DNA of 11,662 nt from the NCBI GenBank assembly GCA_947388575.1, contig CANDSI010000015.1:1-11662 (forward strand). The letters run 5' to 3'. The notes under the pieces are model-generated. The model was given only the letters and a program-made list of their open reading frames with translations, had not been told where the DNA came from and did not search any database. Positions 6,766 through 11,662 of the stretch are shown one piece after another (positions within the stretch are counted from its first letter, which is position 1; every line of letters starts with the position of its first letter). Source of the DNA: an uncultured Mycoplasma sp. Lineage in GTDB: Bacteria > Bacillota_I > Bacilli_A > RF39 > UBA660. The position numbers and the translations under genes were made by a program.

Positions 6766-8098
6766 TATTTACCTCCTTAATACTTGCAGTTACACTTCCT
6801 TTGTGTAATCTAATATTTACAATATCATTTTCTTTTAATTTTGTACTATCTTTAATAAGTTCTTCATCTTTAGTAACTAATGAATATCCTTTTTCTAGTA
6901 TTCCTAAAGGATTAACTAATTTTAATGTATTAACTAATATTTTGTATTCATGATCATTTTTTAAAATGATATTTTTGATATTACTATACAATGTTTTTTC
7001 GTTGAATTCAAGTTTTTCTTTTTTTACCTCAAATAAACTCATTGGATTTTTTAAAACATAACTACTTTTTAAATTATTAAGTATTAATTTATTATTATCA
7101 ATTTTTTTATTAATAAAATTATTTAAAGTATCTATTAAAGCGTCTAATCTTTGTTCTTTTATTTCATATAATGATAAAGGATTTTTTAATATATAAGAAC
7201 TAGTAATACTATCTAACCTTAATTTTGATTTATGAAGCAAATTACTTGTAAATTCGTTTAATCTTATTTGATAAGAATTTAATTCATTGTTAATTTCACT
7301 AATTGTGGGGACAGCCATTTCAGCAGCACCAGTTGGAGTCGGAGCTCGCATATCAGCAACAAAATCAGCGATTGTAAAATCTATTTCATGACCAACTGCG
7401 CTTATAATAGGTACTCTTGCATTATATATAGCACGAGCGACAATCTCTTCATTAAAAGCCCATAGGTCTTCAATAGATCCTCCTCCTCTTCCTACGATTA
7501 AACAATCTAAATCGTATTTTCCACTATCTGCTTCTTCTATTTGCCTTACAATATCAGGAGCAGCATTTTCTCCTTGGACTAAACTTGGGAAAAGAATTGT
7601 TTCACAAATTGGAAATCTTCTTTTAATTGTAGATAATATATCTTTTATTGCAGCACCAGTTGGAGCAGTTATTATCCCTATTCTTTTTGGTATTTTAGGG
7701 ATTTCTTTTTTAAATTCAGGATTGAATAAACCTTCTTCAGATAATTTCTTCTTTAATTTTTCAAATTCTATATATAAATTTCCTAAACCATCTGGTTCCA
7801 TTTTGTCTACATATATTTGATATGTTCCTTGAGCGGGATAACAAGAAATTCTACCTTCTACTAAAACATTCATGCCATCTTCTGGAGAAAACTTCAAAGT
7901 CATAGCACTTGAATAGAACATAACCGCACTTATTCTTGAGGCATCATCTTTTAAGGTAAAATATAAATGACCTCTGGTATGATTCTTAAAGTTGGATATT
8001 TCTCCTCGAAGATATACTTTTTTTAAATAAGGATTTTCATCAAATATGTTTTTTATATATGTATTTAAATCACTTATTTTCATATATTTATCTTGCAT
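6758..8098 (-). CDS. xseA: Exonuclease VII large subunit
   Basis: Catalytic subunit of exonuclease VII, which removes single-stranded DNA in repair and recombination. The 446-aa product has an N-terminal OB fold (about 8-105, with LRGEISNFKNHTRGHLYFTLKD), the catalytic domain with PKRIGIITAPTGAAIKDIL (137-155), VGRGGGSIEDLW (202-213) and a conserved SAVGHEID...DMRAPTPTGAAE (233-260). The C-terminal helical region contains two clear internal repeats, SSYILKNPLSLYEIK (300-314) and SSYVLKNPMSLFEVK (345-359), and a degenerate third copy before KGYSLV, as expected for the XseB-binding coiled coil. ATG at 8098 is preferred: GAGGTG lies nine bases upstream, and the GTG at 8110 is itself part of that ribosome binding site. 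It overlaps the preceding HipA-like gene by 11 bases. Confidence 0.96.
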   Translation of the reverse strand: MQDKYMKISDLNTYIKNIFDENPYLKKVYLRGEISNFKNHTRGHLYFTLKDDASRISAVMFYSSAMTLKFSPEDGMNVLVEGRISCYPAQGTYQIYVDKMEPDGLGNLYIEFEKLKKKLSEEGLFNPEFKKEIPKIPKRIGIITAPTGAAIKDILSTIKRRFPICETILFPSLVQGENAAPDIVRQIEEADSGKYDLDCLIVGRGGGSIEDLWAFNEEIVARAIYNARVPIISAVGHEIDFTIADFVADMRAPTPTGAAEMAVPTISEINNELNSYQIRLNEFTSNLLHKSKLRLDSITSSYILKNPLSLYEIKEQRLDALIDTLNNFINKKIDNNKLILNNLKSSYVLKNPMSLFEVKKEKLEFNEKTLYSNIKNIILKNDHEYKILVNTLKLVNPLGILEKGYSLVTKDEELIKDSTKLKENDIVNIRLHKGSVTASIKEVNNG

Positions 8099-8795
8099 TT
8101 TTATTTTCACCTCTAAAACTATTTAAAATTTCTTGATAATGCTTTTTATATCTGTATTTAAAACTTTTTTTCTTTTTTATTTTTATGCCCAATTCTGCTT
8201 CAATTGAATTTAATAGCTCACTAAATACTAAAGGTGTGATTTTTAAAAATTCTTCTAATAAAGAATTACAAATATCGTAATTAGTTAATATAAATTCTAA
8301 TACATCTTTAGCGCTAGAAAATTTACTGTCATAGCCCATTAATGTAAAATCTTCACTACTAAATATATTTTCATTGTCTAAAACAACTACTTTTCCATTT
8401 AACAAGCCCCAATTTTCTGTAAACCTATCATTATTTGAAAACAAAGTATCAAATAAAAACACTTTTAAAATATCTACAATTAACTCTTCAACTTTGGATG
8501 GTAAATTATTTTTAAAAAAATTTATAATACTTGGAATATTATTTTCACTTTCAGATAAAAACTCTTTAGCTAGGATAAATGTTCCCTCCATGTTTAAATC
8601 AGGACTAACAACGTAATAAGTATTATCAATTAAAAATGGTTCATAATGTGCACATTGTATGTTTAATAAAAGACATAATCTTTCTCCTATAATTTCTGTT
8701 AAAGAATCATTTTCTTTAATATAACATGGTTTTCCTTTAAAATCTAATTTTACAACTTTTGATTTTAATATTTGAATTTTTTCATAATCAGACAT
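8088..8795 (-). CDS. HipA-like kinase-fold protein (copy next to xseA)
   Basis: The 235-aa product resembles a compact HipA-like Ser/Thr kinase. The centre carries FLFDTLFSNNDRFTENWGLL (113-132). D123 and N128, five apart as in HipA Asp309/Asn314, would be the catalytic base and metal ligand, and D140 in VVLDNENIF (137-145) the DFG-like metal ligand. The usual His of DRH is Phe (F125). The N-terminal part (residues 1-75) has the short beta-rich nucleotide-binding pattern with K27 as possible ATP lysine. It lacks the longer HipA N-terminal region, and no HipB-like DNA-binding partner lies beside it. It starts one base after nusB, with AAAGGA upstream, and overlaps xseA by 11 bases, so it is cotranscribed with both. 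Substrate unknown; kinase activity is inference. It shares its architecture with the gene at 9272-10036. Confidence 0.75.
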   Translation of the reverse strand: MSDYEKIQILKSKVVKLDFKGKPCYIKENDSLTEIIGERLCLLLNIQCAHYEPFLIDNTYYVVSPDLNMEGTFILAKEFLSESENNIPSIINFFKNNLPSKVEELIVDILKVFLFDTLFSNNDRFTENWGLLNGKVVVLDNENIFSSEDFTLMGYDSKFSSAKDVLEFILTNYDICNSLLEEFLKITPLVFSELLNSIEAELGIKIKKKKSFKYRYKKHYQEILNSFRGENKNAR

Positions 8796-8796
8796 A

Positions 8797-9192
8797 TTAT
8801 TCCTTTATATACTTATCTAATACAGCATTAATCATTTTTCTTACAGAATCATCACTATATTTTTTAGCTAGTTCTATTGCTTCATTTATAATTACTACTT
8901 CTGGTGTATCAGTGTATTTTAATTCATATAATGCCAGTCTTAAAATAGCAGCGCCAGTTTTGTCTATACGCTTAATGTCCCAATTTTCCATTTTTTCATT
9001 AGCTATCTTGTCTAATTCATCTTTGTATGTAATAACTCCATAAACAATATCTTTTACAAAATCATTTTCAACATCTAAGTTATCTTTTATAATATCTTCG
9101 ATATTACAATTCAATTTGTTGCTATTCATTAAATCATATTGATATAGAATAATCATTATTTTTTCTCTTAATTCACTTCTTGTTAAAGACAT
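8797..9192 (-). CDS. nusB: Transcription antitermination factor NusB
   Basis: NusB pairs with NusE (ribosomal protein S10) on boxA RNA in rRNA antitermination complexes. The all-helical product shows the family ends: TRSELREKIMIILYQYDL near the start, and WDIKRIDKTGAAILRLALYE followed by TPEVVIINEAIELAKKYSDD in the second half. Start at ATG 9192 (131 aa) is preferred because AAAGGTGA lies six bases upstream; an in-frame GTG three codons earlier falls inside that site. A promoter lies at 9206-9239. HipA-like and xseA genes follow in the same transcript. In B. subtilis nusB is also a few genes before xseA and xseB. Confidence 0.95.
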   Translation of the reverse strand: MSLTRSELREKIMIILYQYDLMNSNKLNCNIEDIIKDNLDVENDFVKDIVYGVITYKDELDKIANEKMENWDIKRIDKTGAAILRLALYELKYTDTPEVVIINEAIELAKKYSDDSVRKMINAVLDKYIKE

Positions 9193-9205
9193 ATAAATCA
9201 CCTTT

Positions 9206-9239
9206 TTTAATTATATTATAAAACAAACAAAAATACTAG
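9206..9239 (-). promoter_or_regulatory. Promoter block of nusB, near-identical to that of the upstream HipA-like gene
   Basis: The block begins CTAGTATTT on the minus strand (9239) and ends in overlapping TATAAT boxes (9220-9215 and 9215-9210) just before the ribosome binding site. For the second -10, TAGTAT at 17-base spacing is a weak -35. Twenty-nine of 34 positions match the block at 10058-10091. No hairpin separates it from the end of the preceding gene, so read-through from there is also possible. Confidence 0.55.
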
Positions 9240-9271
9240 TTTTTTATTTCTTATTTTACTTGATTTCTGGT

Positions 9272-10036
9272 TTATTTGCTTCTTTTCTCTTCTTGATGTG
9301 CTATTATTATATCTCTTATTTTTTTATAATGAGTAGTAAAAGTTTGCAATAATTTAGGATCCATTTGCATATTATTTTCTTCTTCAATAGTTTTAATAAT
9401 AGCAGTAACATTTTCGATTTCAGCTTTATCAATCATTTTATAAAGCTCAGCTAAATATTCAGTGGGACATTTTTTTAAAAACTCTCTTAAATCTTCATAA
9501 ATGCGACTTAAATAACTTTTTGAAGTATTAGAAAAAATGGTGTTGCTAAATCTTATATAAGGTAAAAATATAGAAAATATATTTTCGTTATCAAAAATTA
9601 TAACTCGATATTCGTTGTCAATCTCAACAAGCCCCCAATTACGATAATGTCTATCTCCGTTTATAAATAGCATATCAAATAAATACATTTTTAAAAAATC
9701 TTGAATTGTATTATTGGTAGTAAAAGGTAATTTTTTTAAATCTTCAATAATTAAATATATTTCATGATGCGCTCCTACTAAAGTACTAGCACTATTAAAT
9801 GATAATGTTTCATTAATATCACGAGATATGATATAGAAAGTACCATTAATTTTTAAAACTTTATATTTAAAACAATTAAGACCACATAACTTTGCTAGTT
9901 TATATCCTAAATATTCTTTTAAACGTTCATCTTTTTTTACATAATAGAGACTACCTGAAATAACCAAGGAATTACATCTAATGGTTCTTGTTAATTTTAT
10001 AATCTCTGCACTTATTTTTTTATCTATTTTAAACAT
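9272..10036 (-). CDS. HipA-like kinase-fold protein (copy upstream of nusB)
   Basis: The 254-aa product has the same layout as the gene at 8088-8795. The core is LFDMLFINGDRHYRNWGL (119-136) with D128, H130 and N133 in a canonical DRHxxN motif, and IIFDNENIF (146-154) with D149 as the second metal ligand. A beta-rich N-terminal part (residues 20-75, with YYVKK and a Y-I-I-S-R-D strand) would form the small lobe; K34 or K35 may bind ATP. The rest is helical. It is about half the length of classical HipA and has no hipB-like gene beside it, so antitoxin control of the classical sort is not evident. AGGAGG lies five bases before the ATG. It follows directly on the type III toxin-antitoxin module. 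Family placement is by motif; a role in growth control or phage defence is inference. Confidence 0.8.
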   Translation of the reverse strand: MFKIDKKISAEIIKLTRTIRCNSLVISGSLYYVKKDERLKEYLGYKLAKLCGLNCFKYKVLKINGTFYIISRDINETLSFNSASTLVGAHHEIYLIIEDLKKLPFTTNNTIQDFLKMYLFDMLFINGDRHYRNWGLVEIDNEYRVIIFDNENIFSIFLPYIRFSNTIFSNTSKSYLSRIYEDLREFLKKCPTEYLAELYKMIDKAEIENVTAIIKTIEEENNMQMDPKLLQTFTTHYKKIRDIIIAHQEEKRSK

Positions 10037-10057
10037 TTTTACCTCCTATTAATATAT

Positions 10058-10091
10058 TTTTATTATATTATAAAGCAAATCTAAATACTAG
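10058..10091 (-). promoter_or_regulatory. Promoter block of the upstream HipA-like gene
   Basis: Minus strand CTAGTATTT (from 10091) leads to overlapping TATAAT boxes at 10072-10067 and 10067-10062, with the ribosome binding site soon after. No strong -35 is present; TAGTAT at 10090-10085 gives a 17-base spacer to the second box. The block matches that of nusB at 29 of 34 positions and sits directly after the antitoxin RNA terminator. Confidence 0.55.
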
Positions 10092-10099
10092 AAAAATAT

Positions 10100-10125
10100 A
10101 AAAAAATTAGAGTAAGCTCTCTAAT
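10100..10125 (-). terminator. Intrinsic terminator of the antitoxin RNA
   Basis: Minus strand ATTAGAG and CTCTAAT form a perfect 7-bp stem around the six-base loop AGCTTA (10125-10106), followed by a T tract (10105-10100, continuing T-rich). Since no terminator follows toxN itself, this one probably ends both the antitoxin RNA and any read-through toxin mRNA. Confidence 0.85.
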
Positions 10126-10139
10126 CTATCTTTTTTAAC

Positions 10140-10202
10140 TCCCTAGTTACGGCCGGGAATCACCAACTTTTATTAGGTCCCTAGTTACGGCCGGGAATCA
10201 CC
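10140..10202 (-). repeat. Two identical 25-nt antitoxin repeat cores at 38-nt spacing
   Basis: The cores at 10140-10164 and 10178-10202 are identical over 25 bases. On the minus strand each reads GGTGATTCCC, then GGCCGTAACTA, then GGGA, so UCCC can pair with GGGA around an 11-base loop carrying GGCC. In the first transcribed unit flanking AGG and CCU may extend the fold. The spacers differ except for a shared CTTTT on the plus strand. The cores are much richer in G and C than their surroundings. Confidence 0.9.
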
Positions 10203-10219
10203 TGCTTTTTATAGATTAA

Positions 10220-10248
10220 ATTATAATATATTTTTTTGTGAAAATCAA
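10220..10248 (-). promoter_or_regulatory. Promoter of the antitoxin RNA
   Basis: Minus strand TTGATT (10248-10243) and TATAAT (10225-10220) are separated by exactly 17 bases, with an A-rich spacer. The -35 begins only three bases after the toxN stop codon. It is among the best promoters in the window and closer to consensus at -10 spacing than that of the toxin, as would suit an antitoxin that must be in excess. Confidence 0.8.
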
Positions 10249-10250
10249 GT

Positions 10251-10751
10251 TTAATTCACTATTCTATCATTGTATTTTATACTTTTTTCCTCTAAAAGCA
10301 AAAAATTGCAGCATCTTCTTTTAACATTAAAGCTCAATTGGTCATACTTATATGAATTATATAAACGCTTTGCTTTATGACAAATAGAATCATAATAACG
10401 ATTTAACCATCTTATTTGCTTAGTTAATAATTTTCTATAATTACTATCTTCCATTTCTTCAATTTTTATAATTTCATAACTGCCTTTAATAAGTGGAAGC
10501 ATATTATTAAAATTAATTGCACCTAATTTTCCTTTATCAATTTTGATAAAATCAACTCCATCTTCCATTGTTAAATGCTTTTTCTTTGGACTTGAAAGTG
10601 GTGCAAAATATTCCACTTCTCCTACTTCAAATAATATTCCGATAAACGGTCTTAGTTCTTTCTTACCATAATTATACGGAACCCTTTCGTCAAACTTTCT
10701 TAAAAAGTCACAATACTTATAATCAACTTGTACAATATTAAAGCTTTTCAT
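10251..10751 (-). CDS. toxN: ToxN/AbiQ-family endoribonuclease, type III toxin
   Basis: ToxN-family toxins are RNases that cut cellular mRNA and stop growth, often to abort phage infection; an RNA antitoxin of tandem repeats holds them inactive. The 166-aa product has the usual length and order of motifs: FDERVPYN (20-27), FIGILFEVGEVEYFAPLSSP (36-55) followed by KKKH, with S53-S54-P55-K56 matching the catalytic T/S-S-P-K of ToxN; KLGAINFNNMLPLI (75-88); then YRKLLTKQIRWLN, and a C-terminal CNFLLLEEK. All of these resemble Pectobacterium ToxN as I remember it. AAGGAAGGGG lies about nine bases before the ATG. It has its own promoter at 10788-10817, and the antitoxin RNA follows immediately downstream. 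No frameshift or missing key residue is seen, so it is probably active. Confidence 0.93.
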   Translation of the reverse strand: MKSFNIVQVDYKYCDFLRKFDERVPYNYGKKELRPFIGILFEVGEVEYFAPLSSPKKKHLTMEDGVDFIKIDKGKLGAINFNNMLPLIKGSYEIIKIEEMEDSNYRKLLTKQIRWLNRYYDSICHKAKRLYNSYKYDQLSFNVKRRCCNFLLLEEKSIKYNDRIVN

Positions 10752-10787
10752 TTTACCATTCCCCTTCCTTTAGTTTTGTACATATTA

Positions 10788-10817
10788 ATTATAACATTTG
10801 TTCGTTATGTTCGTCAA
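10788..10817 (-). promoter_or_regulatory. Promoter of toxN with a direct repeat in its spacer
   Basis: Minus strand TTGACG (10817-10812) and TATAAT (10793-10788) lie 18 bases apart, about 37 bases before the toxN ATG. The plus strand between and over the -35 reads TGTTCGT-TA-TGTTCGT (10800-10815), a 7-base direct repeat at a 9-base period that could bind a regulator. No antitoxin-like repeats or terminator lie between this promoter and the toxin gene. Confidence 0.7.
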
Positions 10818-10872
10818 ATATTTTATATGAAAATAAAAAAAGCTTAAATTGATATTTTTTGATTATGCCTAT

Positions 10873-11335
10873 TTATAAATTCGTATCTTCATATTTTATA
10901 TTTTTAATATTCATTCCTAGTGATTCGTAAAATCTAATAGCATTCTCATTAAAGCCCCAAACATTTAATTCAATTGCATCTATATTCTTAGACTTAACTT
11001 CATTTTTTAAATACTCATATAATTTTCTTCCAATACTTTGATGTTGATAGTTTTCTTTTACTCCTAATGATTCAATAAAACAAATTTTACGGGCTTTTAT
11101 AATATAATTGTCCATAGTAGTTTTAATATCTGCGGTAAGAATACCAACTACTTTATTATCTAAAATATAAGCATAATTTAAGTTTTCTTTATCATTTAAT
11201 AATTCTTCAAAATATTTTAGTGGTAATGGATTGCCATCTATATATATCTGGTCTATTTTCTAAATGTAGATTATGTACTTCATAAAATAATTCTTTTACT
11301 TCTTCATAATCTTCTAATAACATTTCTCTAATCAT
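10873..11335 (-). pseudogene. GNAT-family N-acetyltransferase, split by a frameshift
   Basis: GNAT enzymes move an acetyl group from acetyl-CoA to an amine. ATG at 11335 has AAGGAG seven bases upstream and starts an open frame, MIREMLLEDYEEVKELF, that reads HNLHLENRPDIY and then goes out of frame at a TATATATAT run (11239-11247), reaching a TGA after 42 codons. Adding one TA unit restores ...RPDIYIDGNPLPLKYFEELL... and joins the acetyl-CoA-binding part (SLGVKENYQHQSIGRKLYEYL, then FYESLGM) to give a 154-aa protein of normal GNAT length. The start overlaps the mutS stop by eight bases. Either the gene is broken, the TA tract switches it on and off, or the assembly has an error here. Usual RxxGxG is QHQSIG, with Ser for the first Gly. 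Confidence 0.8.
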
Positions 11336-11662
11336 TACTTATCTCCTTTAATTCAAATAAAGTATTCATAGCTTCTAATGGCGTCATATGTAGAGGGTCG
11401 ATACTTTTTAGTTTTTCACGAAGTTCATCTTTTTCAACTTTTTCTTTTTCAATACTTCCTAAATCCATAGTAAGCTGGATATTATCACTTGTCTTTAATA
11501 TATTTTTTGCTTCACTTTCATAACTGCTTAATATTGCGTCTGCTCTTGTAAGTAATTCTTCTGGCATTTTAGCAAGTCTCGCAACATGAATACCATATGA
11601 TTTGTCAGCTGGTCCATTTTTGACTTTATGTAAGAATGTTATCATACTGCCCTCTTCTTTAG
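11328..11662 (-). CDS. mutS: DNA mismatch repair protein MutS, C-terminal end only
   Basis: MutS recognises base mismatches and starts repair through MutL. The frame is open to the window edge, so the N-terminal mismatch-binding, core and most of the ATPase domains are outside. What remains is KEEGSMITFLHKVKNGPADK, SYGIHVARLAKMPEELLTRADAIL, the family's HKV...ADKSYGIHVA signature at the end of the ATPase domain, then a variable linker and the C-terminal DPLHMTPLEAMNTLFELKE motif. ADKSYGI marks MutS1, not MutS2. It ends in TAG at 11328. mutL does not follow; the GNAT gene does, overlapping the stop. Confidence 0.95.
   Translation of the reverse strand, partial: KEEGSMITFLHKVKNGPADKSYGIHVARLAKMPEELLTRADAILSSYESEAKNILKTSDNIQLTMDLGSIEKEKVEKDELREKLKSIDPLHMTPLEAMNTLFELKEISND

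Follow-up and report, generated by a model that had tools for sequence, protein, structure and literature searches.

The window analyzed here is the full 11,662-nucleotide (nt) stretch of contig CANDSI010000015.1 (GenBank assembly GCA_947388575.1) from an uncultured Mycoplasma sp. It contains a toxN gene with an array of toxI-like repeats directly behind it. We consider it likely, from the sequence, that the two work together as a type III toxin-antitoxin module of the ToxIN family whose gene order is reversed, and in which the repeat RNA would neutralize the toxin. All type III systems are said to share an antitoxin-first arrangement, which is presumed to secure antitoxin excess (PMC5086642, in its accessible part). 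The genes, their order, the likeness of the repeats to toxI, the covariation of the family pseudoknot and the conservation of the locus in a second genome are all seen in the DNA, and are described below.

The toxN gene (10751-10251, minus strand) is an intact open reading frame (ORF) for a ToxN/AbiQ-family endoribonuclease toxin of 166 amino acids (aa). The Pfam ToxN family, PF13958, matches nearly the entire product (E=7.7e-47), and the related solved structures in the PDB are ToxN (4ato, 2xd0, 7d8o) and AbiQ (4glk), which places the protein among the toxins of type III ToxIN/AbiQ systems. The active site of the E. coli toxin consists of Lys33, Thr52, Ser53 and Lys55 (PMC8860590, in its accessible part). 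Matched by eye, these residues align with R34, S53, S54 and K56 of the window protein, so that the active site is retained with conservative replacements at two of the four positions. A putative toxN promoter, TTGACG-18-TATAAT with a TG (11/12), lies at 10817-10788 on the minus strand. Thus, the first-pass annotation, made from the letters of the window, was right to call an intact ToxN-family gene with a promoter match of its own.

The array begins almost immediately behind toxN. Its putative promoter (10248-10220, minus strand) has the sequence TTGATT-17-TATAAT (10/12), as first annotated, and starts two bases past the toxN stop codon, not three. The region 9200-11662 contains 27 promoter-like sites compared with 19.1 (standard deviation 4.2) in shuffled sequence, so that a promoter match by itself says little. 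Two 38-nt units follow, whose 25-nt cores (unit 1, 10202-10178; unit 2, 10164-10140; both minus strand) are identical, again as proposed; the stems GGU:GCC and CCC:GGG can both form in each unit, giving an H-type pseudoknot. The linkers are A-rich. The array closes with a terminator-like element (10127-10098, minus strand) comprising a hairpin of nine pairs and a T-run. Its description as a strong terminator was overstated, as the hairpin is A+T-rich and a standard terminator scan lists none at this position; the hairpin and T-run themselves are present, and the motif TTAGAGAGC..ACTCTAA in this element resembles that closing toxI in relatives with the ordinary order, such as L011 and L217. No terminator was seen between toxN and the array, and no tandem repeat lies upstream of toxN (score 5.0; highest shuffled score 10.6), which agrees with the earlier observation that nothing repeat-like precedes the gene. 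The predicted secondary structure of the array does not stand out (z -1.17), in a fold that cannot draw a pseudoknot. No Rfam model matches 9900-11000 of the window at E<=5; this says little, because an Rfam scan of four ordinary toxI loci returned nothing relevant either.

To establish what kind of repeat this is, we used a profile of 63 units from arrays upstream of other toxN genes, with the window left out. The profile finds both window units, at 10.5 and 12.8 bits compared with a best score of 5.6 in shuffled flanks. By this measure the window units are toxI-like, of the same kind as the arrays that precede toxN in relatives. Among 243 distinct units matched by the profile, those of the window among them, 96% reach a pseudoknot score of at least 10, compared with 8.9% of shuffled units. 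The second stem was tested by script, because the MAFFT alignment of the units left it unaligned: of 113 arrays, 111 could be parsed, and in 105 of these it pairs with the complement belonging to the same array, whereas 1000 permutations gave 66 such arrays on average and 77 at most. For the first stem, an alignment of 46 units shows pairing in each of its 138 cells, with one pair changed on both sides. In the sequences compared, the H-type pseudoknot of the repeat family is thus supported by covariation, and the window array, with two tandem units in which both stems are possible, shares this plan with ToxIN and AbiQ.

The same layout is found in a second genome, G001, an uncultured 'Tenericutes' metagenome-assembled genome (MAG) whose single ToxN is 96% identical to that of the window. 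The G001 toxN contig carries the promoter hexamers and the first unit behind toxN and stops within the second unit; another contig starts inside an identical array and runs through a like terminator directly into nusB. Left unjoined, the two contigs indicate an array of at least three units. The search for the repeat core behind toxN in relatives, proposed in the first-pass annotation, therefore succeeded in G001, which matches the window in gene order, cores and promoter hexamers. The array promoter retains its two hexamers around a different spacer, and the counterpart of the toxN promoter reads TTGACC-17-TATAAT. Judged from these two sequences, conservation of the promoter matches counts for more than the matches themselves. 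The core with up to two mismatches occurs nowhere in G001 outside the known array, and a looser 16-letter pattern gave one extra two-mismatch hit, no more than its backward control. An RNA model of the repeats, run at E up to 10 with 150 of 249 candidates scored, had the array behind toxN as its sole match (22.7 bits, E 2.6). Full-length relatives of the window ToxN at 73-83% identity (P0002, P0004-P0006) enter the analysis as proteins and stand outside the order counts below. In a tree of 133 rows, the window and G001 ToxN form a lone branch; in a tree of 56 ToxN proteins they group, with weak support (89/75), with L002, L055, L005 and L142.

To place this order among known toxN loci, we counted arrays on both sides of the gene. 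The 80 genome toxN loci are the best 80 of 367 confirmed, and the family, order and phylum searches are samples; partial, open-ended or stop-containing toxN hits were removed before counting, and toxN records of plasmids (160) and phages (2) stand outside the counts. Among 135 distinct full-length loci, profile units lie upstream only in 103, on both sides in six, downstream only in two (the window and G001) and, at this profile threshold, on neither side in 24; upstream of 16 of these 24, the tandem score is 12 or more (highest shuffled 10.6). The order and phylum samples bring the total to 193 distinct loci. In this larger count, an array was defined by a profile score of at least 8 bits or a tandem score of at least 12 (highest shuffled 8.8), within 450 nt upstream or 350 nt downstream. 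The array is upstream only in 160 loci, on both sides in nine, on neither in 19 (three of these with less than 250 nt upstream) and downstream only in five, namely the window, G001 and three mycoplasma-like loci (two in G614, one in G596). Six of the nine both-sided loci are tandem modules, in which the downstream array precedes the next toxN (L011, L017 twice, L113, L334 and L325, the last two by paired hits). Among the others, L180 reaches its contig end, and L005 and L041 have extra units behind toxN with no further toxN seen. L335 is one of the 19 loci whose toxN has no tandem array on either flank in the stretches read. None of eight viral toxN loci has the downstream-only order, and the exact core is absent among viral contigs. 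Two further downstream-only loci, both in G921, were found after the 193-locus count, giving seven in total. As five of these seven are mycoplasma-like, the layout is not confined to the lineage of the window.

The five mycoplasma-like loci (G596, G614, G921) resemble the window in having the array directly behind toxN, an H-type pseudoknot plan and a promoter match overlapping the end of toxN. Two to four units start within about 25 nt of toxN. They differ from the window in unit length (41-42 nt) and in a ToxN without the C-terminal CNF..LEE motif, by eye. TATAAT lies 11-18 nt ahead of the first core in all five intact loci, and a hairpin with a T-run was found by script in three of the five. 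The units follow the same pseudoknot plan by eye, with UUGG:CCAA or AGGUG:CACCU as one stem and CGC:GCG as the other; the second stem reads CGC:GCG in L292 and UGC:GCA in L343, which is a compensatory change. In the one pair compared for selection, L293/L345, toxN is under purifying selection (omega 0.14, p=0.003). Upstream of toxN, L343 of G921 contains a tandem rich in T and C (score 18.6), which was judged not toxI-like; the score rule would count it and class the locus as both-sided. The family of G614 carries toxN in five of 135 genomes. The toxN loci of G603 and G931 have the ordinary order, apart from one G931 gene that stands second in a pair and has no separate array. In the 56-protein tree, the five mycoplasma-like proteins form one clade (100/99), separate from the window pair. 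A single clade of all seven was rejected by the approximately unbiased (AU) test (p=0.02, a somewhat generous value since the seven-member group was defined after the survey), and one origin was recovered in none of 200 bootstrap trees. On the strength of the rejected constraint, the reversed order probably arose at least twice.

Compared with the characterized systems, the window shares with ToxIN (Pectobacterium, Bacillus, E. coli) and AbiQ the toxin family, the active-site residues, the tandem H-type pseudoknot units, the A-rich linkers and a terminator behind toxI. It departs from them in that the array is downstream with its own promoter match and the toxin does not stand behind the toxI terminator. 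An array upstream, one promoter and a terminator between the two parts are thus not the arrangement found here; because the array is downstream only, we classify the window as a reverse-order variant and not as an ordinary type III operon. The type II systems HigBA and HicAB also have the toxin gene first (PMC5086642, in its accessible part), but their antitoxin is a protein.

The first-pass annotation had proposed that toxin and antitoxin are uncoupled through separate promoters. Separate matches are indeed present; they are not peculiar to the reversed order. Across 103 loci of ordinary order, toxI and toxN are separated by a median of 78 nt. Promoter matches in this gap score at least 10 in 27 loci and at least 11 in 21, and they exceed shuffles (p<0.05) in 30. 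The corresponding values for the stretch before the array in the same 103 loci are 41, 18 and 32. Given these 27 loci, having a separate toxN promoter does not set the reversed order apart. All six ordinary loci with the repeats closest to those of the window are among the 27, although they fall into two clades and are not independent. A toxN with its own promoter need not stand behind toxI, which offers a route to reversal.

We infer that the module is transcribed and processed, and its toxin neutralized, along the following lines, and that it may take part in phage defense. toxN would be transcribed from its own promoter, and a two-unit toxI RNA of ~115 nt would be made from the second promoter, right behind the toxN stop, to the toxI terminator. 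Each unit would fold as an H-type pseudoknot; ToxN would cut the A-rich linkers, and the monomers would lock the toxin in a ring complex, as in known ToxIN. Because no terminator was seen between the genes, the toxN messenger RNA (mRNA) is expected to read through the array. It would carry the antitoxin as its 3' untranslated region (UTR), and each toxin message would also yield antitoxin.

The chromosomal surroundings bear on how this order came about. The site is bordered by the end of mutS (11328-11660) on one side and by nusB (8797-9183) on the other. A gene fragment for a GNAT acetyltransferase (80 aa, 10873-11115) lies on the mutS side; G001 has a longer copy in this position. A HipA-like kinase gene (9272-10036) lies between toxI and nusB, and all four flanking genes are on the minus strand. 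nusB was found in 31 of 36 genomes of the window's genus, and 30 loci were read. In nine of these the mutS match ends 58-157 nt before nusB, a gap that leaves no room for a gene; five loci have other inserts at the site, and in 12 no mutS was seen in the stretch. L217 (G388) reads mutS, four toxI units, toxN, nusB, the ordinary order at the same site. In L208 (G404), toxI-toxN directly precedes nusB, and the stretch read does not reach mutS. L212 (G370) contains mutS, a GNAT gene (154 aa) 58% identical to that of the window, a single toxI unit, the gutted remains of toxN, and nusB. Judging from these loci, the mutS-nusB site is one visited by toxIN. The modules of G388 and G404 match the window in their position before nusB, in similar units and terminator and in a separate promoter match before toxN, but have toxI ahead of toxN. 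The reversal may thus be derived, along a path that we reconstruct, from an ordinary or tandem module after loss of one copy of each part. Solo toxI units with a terminator and no intact toxN alongside are also present in the genus, at L236 1465-1565 (G408), L240 1438-1540 (G406) and L212 2147-2182 (G370). Behind the complete toxIN of L005 stands another toxI array, solo, with two units and closed by a terminator of its own.

Several observations weigh against a cooperating module. The first stem is nearly invariant across the family, so that shuffles average 97.7% pairing, although 0/500 reach 100%. The RNA model scores the window units weakly, far from the consensus (E 0.11 and 0.59 in 40 kb). 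The window repeats track ToxN kinship poorly (rho 0.19 compared with a median of 0.52, rank 7/110), a value qualified by the about equal distance of the window ToxN to all other ToxN, and the cognate fit of repeats and toxin is for this reason not proven. The selection test on the window toxN gave no significant result: between the window and G001 there are 7.5 nonsynonymous and 3.5 synonymous changes (omega 0.46, p=0.24, not different from 1). With a cutoff of E<=0.1, the RNA model detects no toxI in G001 and misses the known array too, so that the case against further arrays there depends on the looser searches of a possibly incomplete MAG. Finally, the solo arrays without intact toxN in the genus mean that an array can be left over.

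This last point leads to the strongest alternative, that the array is a solo relic of a former tandem or ordinary module, toxN is partnerless and the two do not cooperate. The solo toxI of G408 and G406, that of G370 next to the toxN remnant between mutS and nusB, the solo array behind a complete toxIN in G410 and the weak concordance of repeats and toxin in the window all fit such a history. Yet G001 retains the order, the cores and the promoter hexamers with an intact toxN, full-length protein relatives exist at the identities given above, and the order is common to seven loci. In addition, an intact toxin with a good promoter match but no antitoxin should be costly. We therefore regard a leftover array as improbable, but the most serious of the alternatives. 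A misjoining of an ordinary locus at its repeats could be suspected from the G001 contigs, which break within the array; as the promoter and first unit are on the toxN contig itself in G001, the entire order is continuous within the window, and G614 has the same order on a single contig of 919,993 bases, a chimeric contig was rejected and an assembly artefact seems very unlikely. That the array belongs to the HipA-like gene directly behind it is the least credible explanation, and was rejected because in G001 the array runs directly into nusB without that gene, and because the repeats belong to the toxI type that accompanies toxN.

Beyond the reversed module itself, we lean slightly toward a more general proposal, in which type III gene order would be free and not fixed. 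toxI would be an autonomous cassette of promoter, pseudoknot array and terminator that can precede toxN, follow it or stand by itself. Reversal would have arisen at least two times, with the toxin message carrying its own antitoxin as a self-processed 3' UTR in place of ratio control by a leaky terminator, and upstream-only surveys would miss it. Surveys that look upstream of toxN for the array have a blind spot for this order: in the accessible parts of the sources, one survey required the antitoxin-first arrangement (PMC5086642) and an E. coli survey probed the region upstream of toxN (PMC8860590). The suggestion that the layout may be undescribed is in line with the literature searched, as no reversed type III order was found among the matches listed (titles and abstract starts, with most subscription papers outside), though it may be described elsewhere. 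The accessible parts of PMC12373285 (AbiF) and PMC10853763 describe none, and that of PMC8562856, on mycoplasma toxin-antitoxin systems, has type III once, in the introduction, with ToxN and AbiQ unmentioned. Natural reversal in two lineages makes it testable whether the terminator between toxI and toxN is needed at all.

The neighboring genes differ in their divergence from G001. Synonymous divergence (dS) is 0.04 for toxN, far below nusB (0.38), mutS (0.22), the GNAT piece (0.16) and xseA (0.10), which in this comparison hints at recombination. In the window, nusB is flanked by two HipA-like genes (8088-8795 and 9272-10036). A HipA-like match lies between nusB and xseA in 10 of the 30 genus loci, the other 20 being unmatched. 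A 35-bp direct repeat (86%) at 9205-9239 and 10057-10091 covers the promoter regions of nusB and of the HipA-like gene; it looks as if the promoter region was copied on arrival of the HipA-like gene, which is absent at this place in G001.
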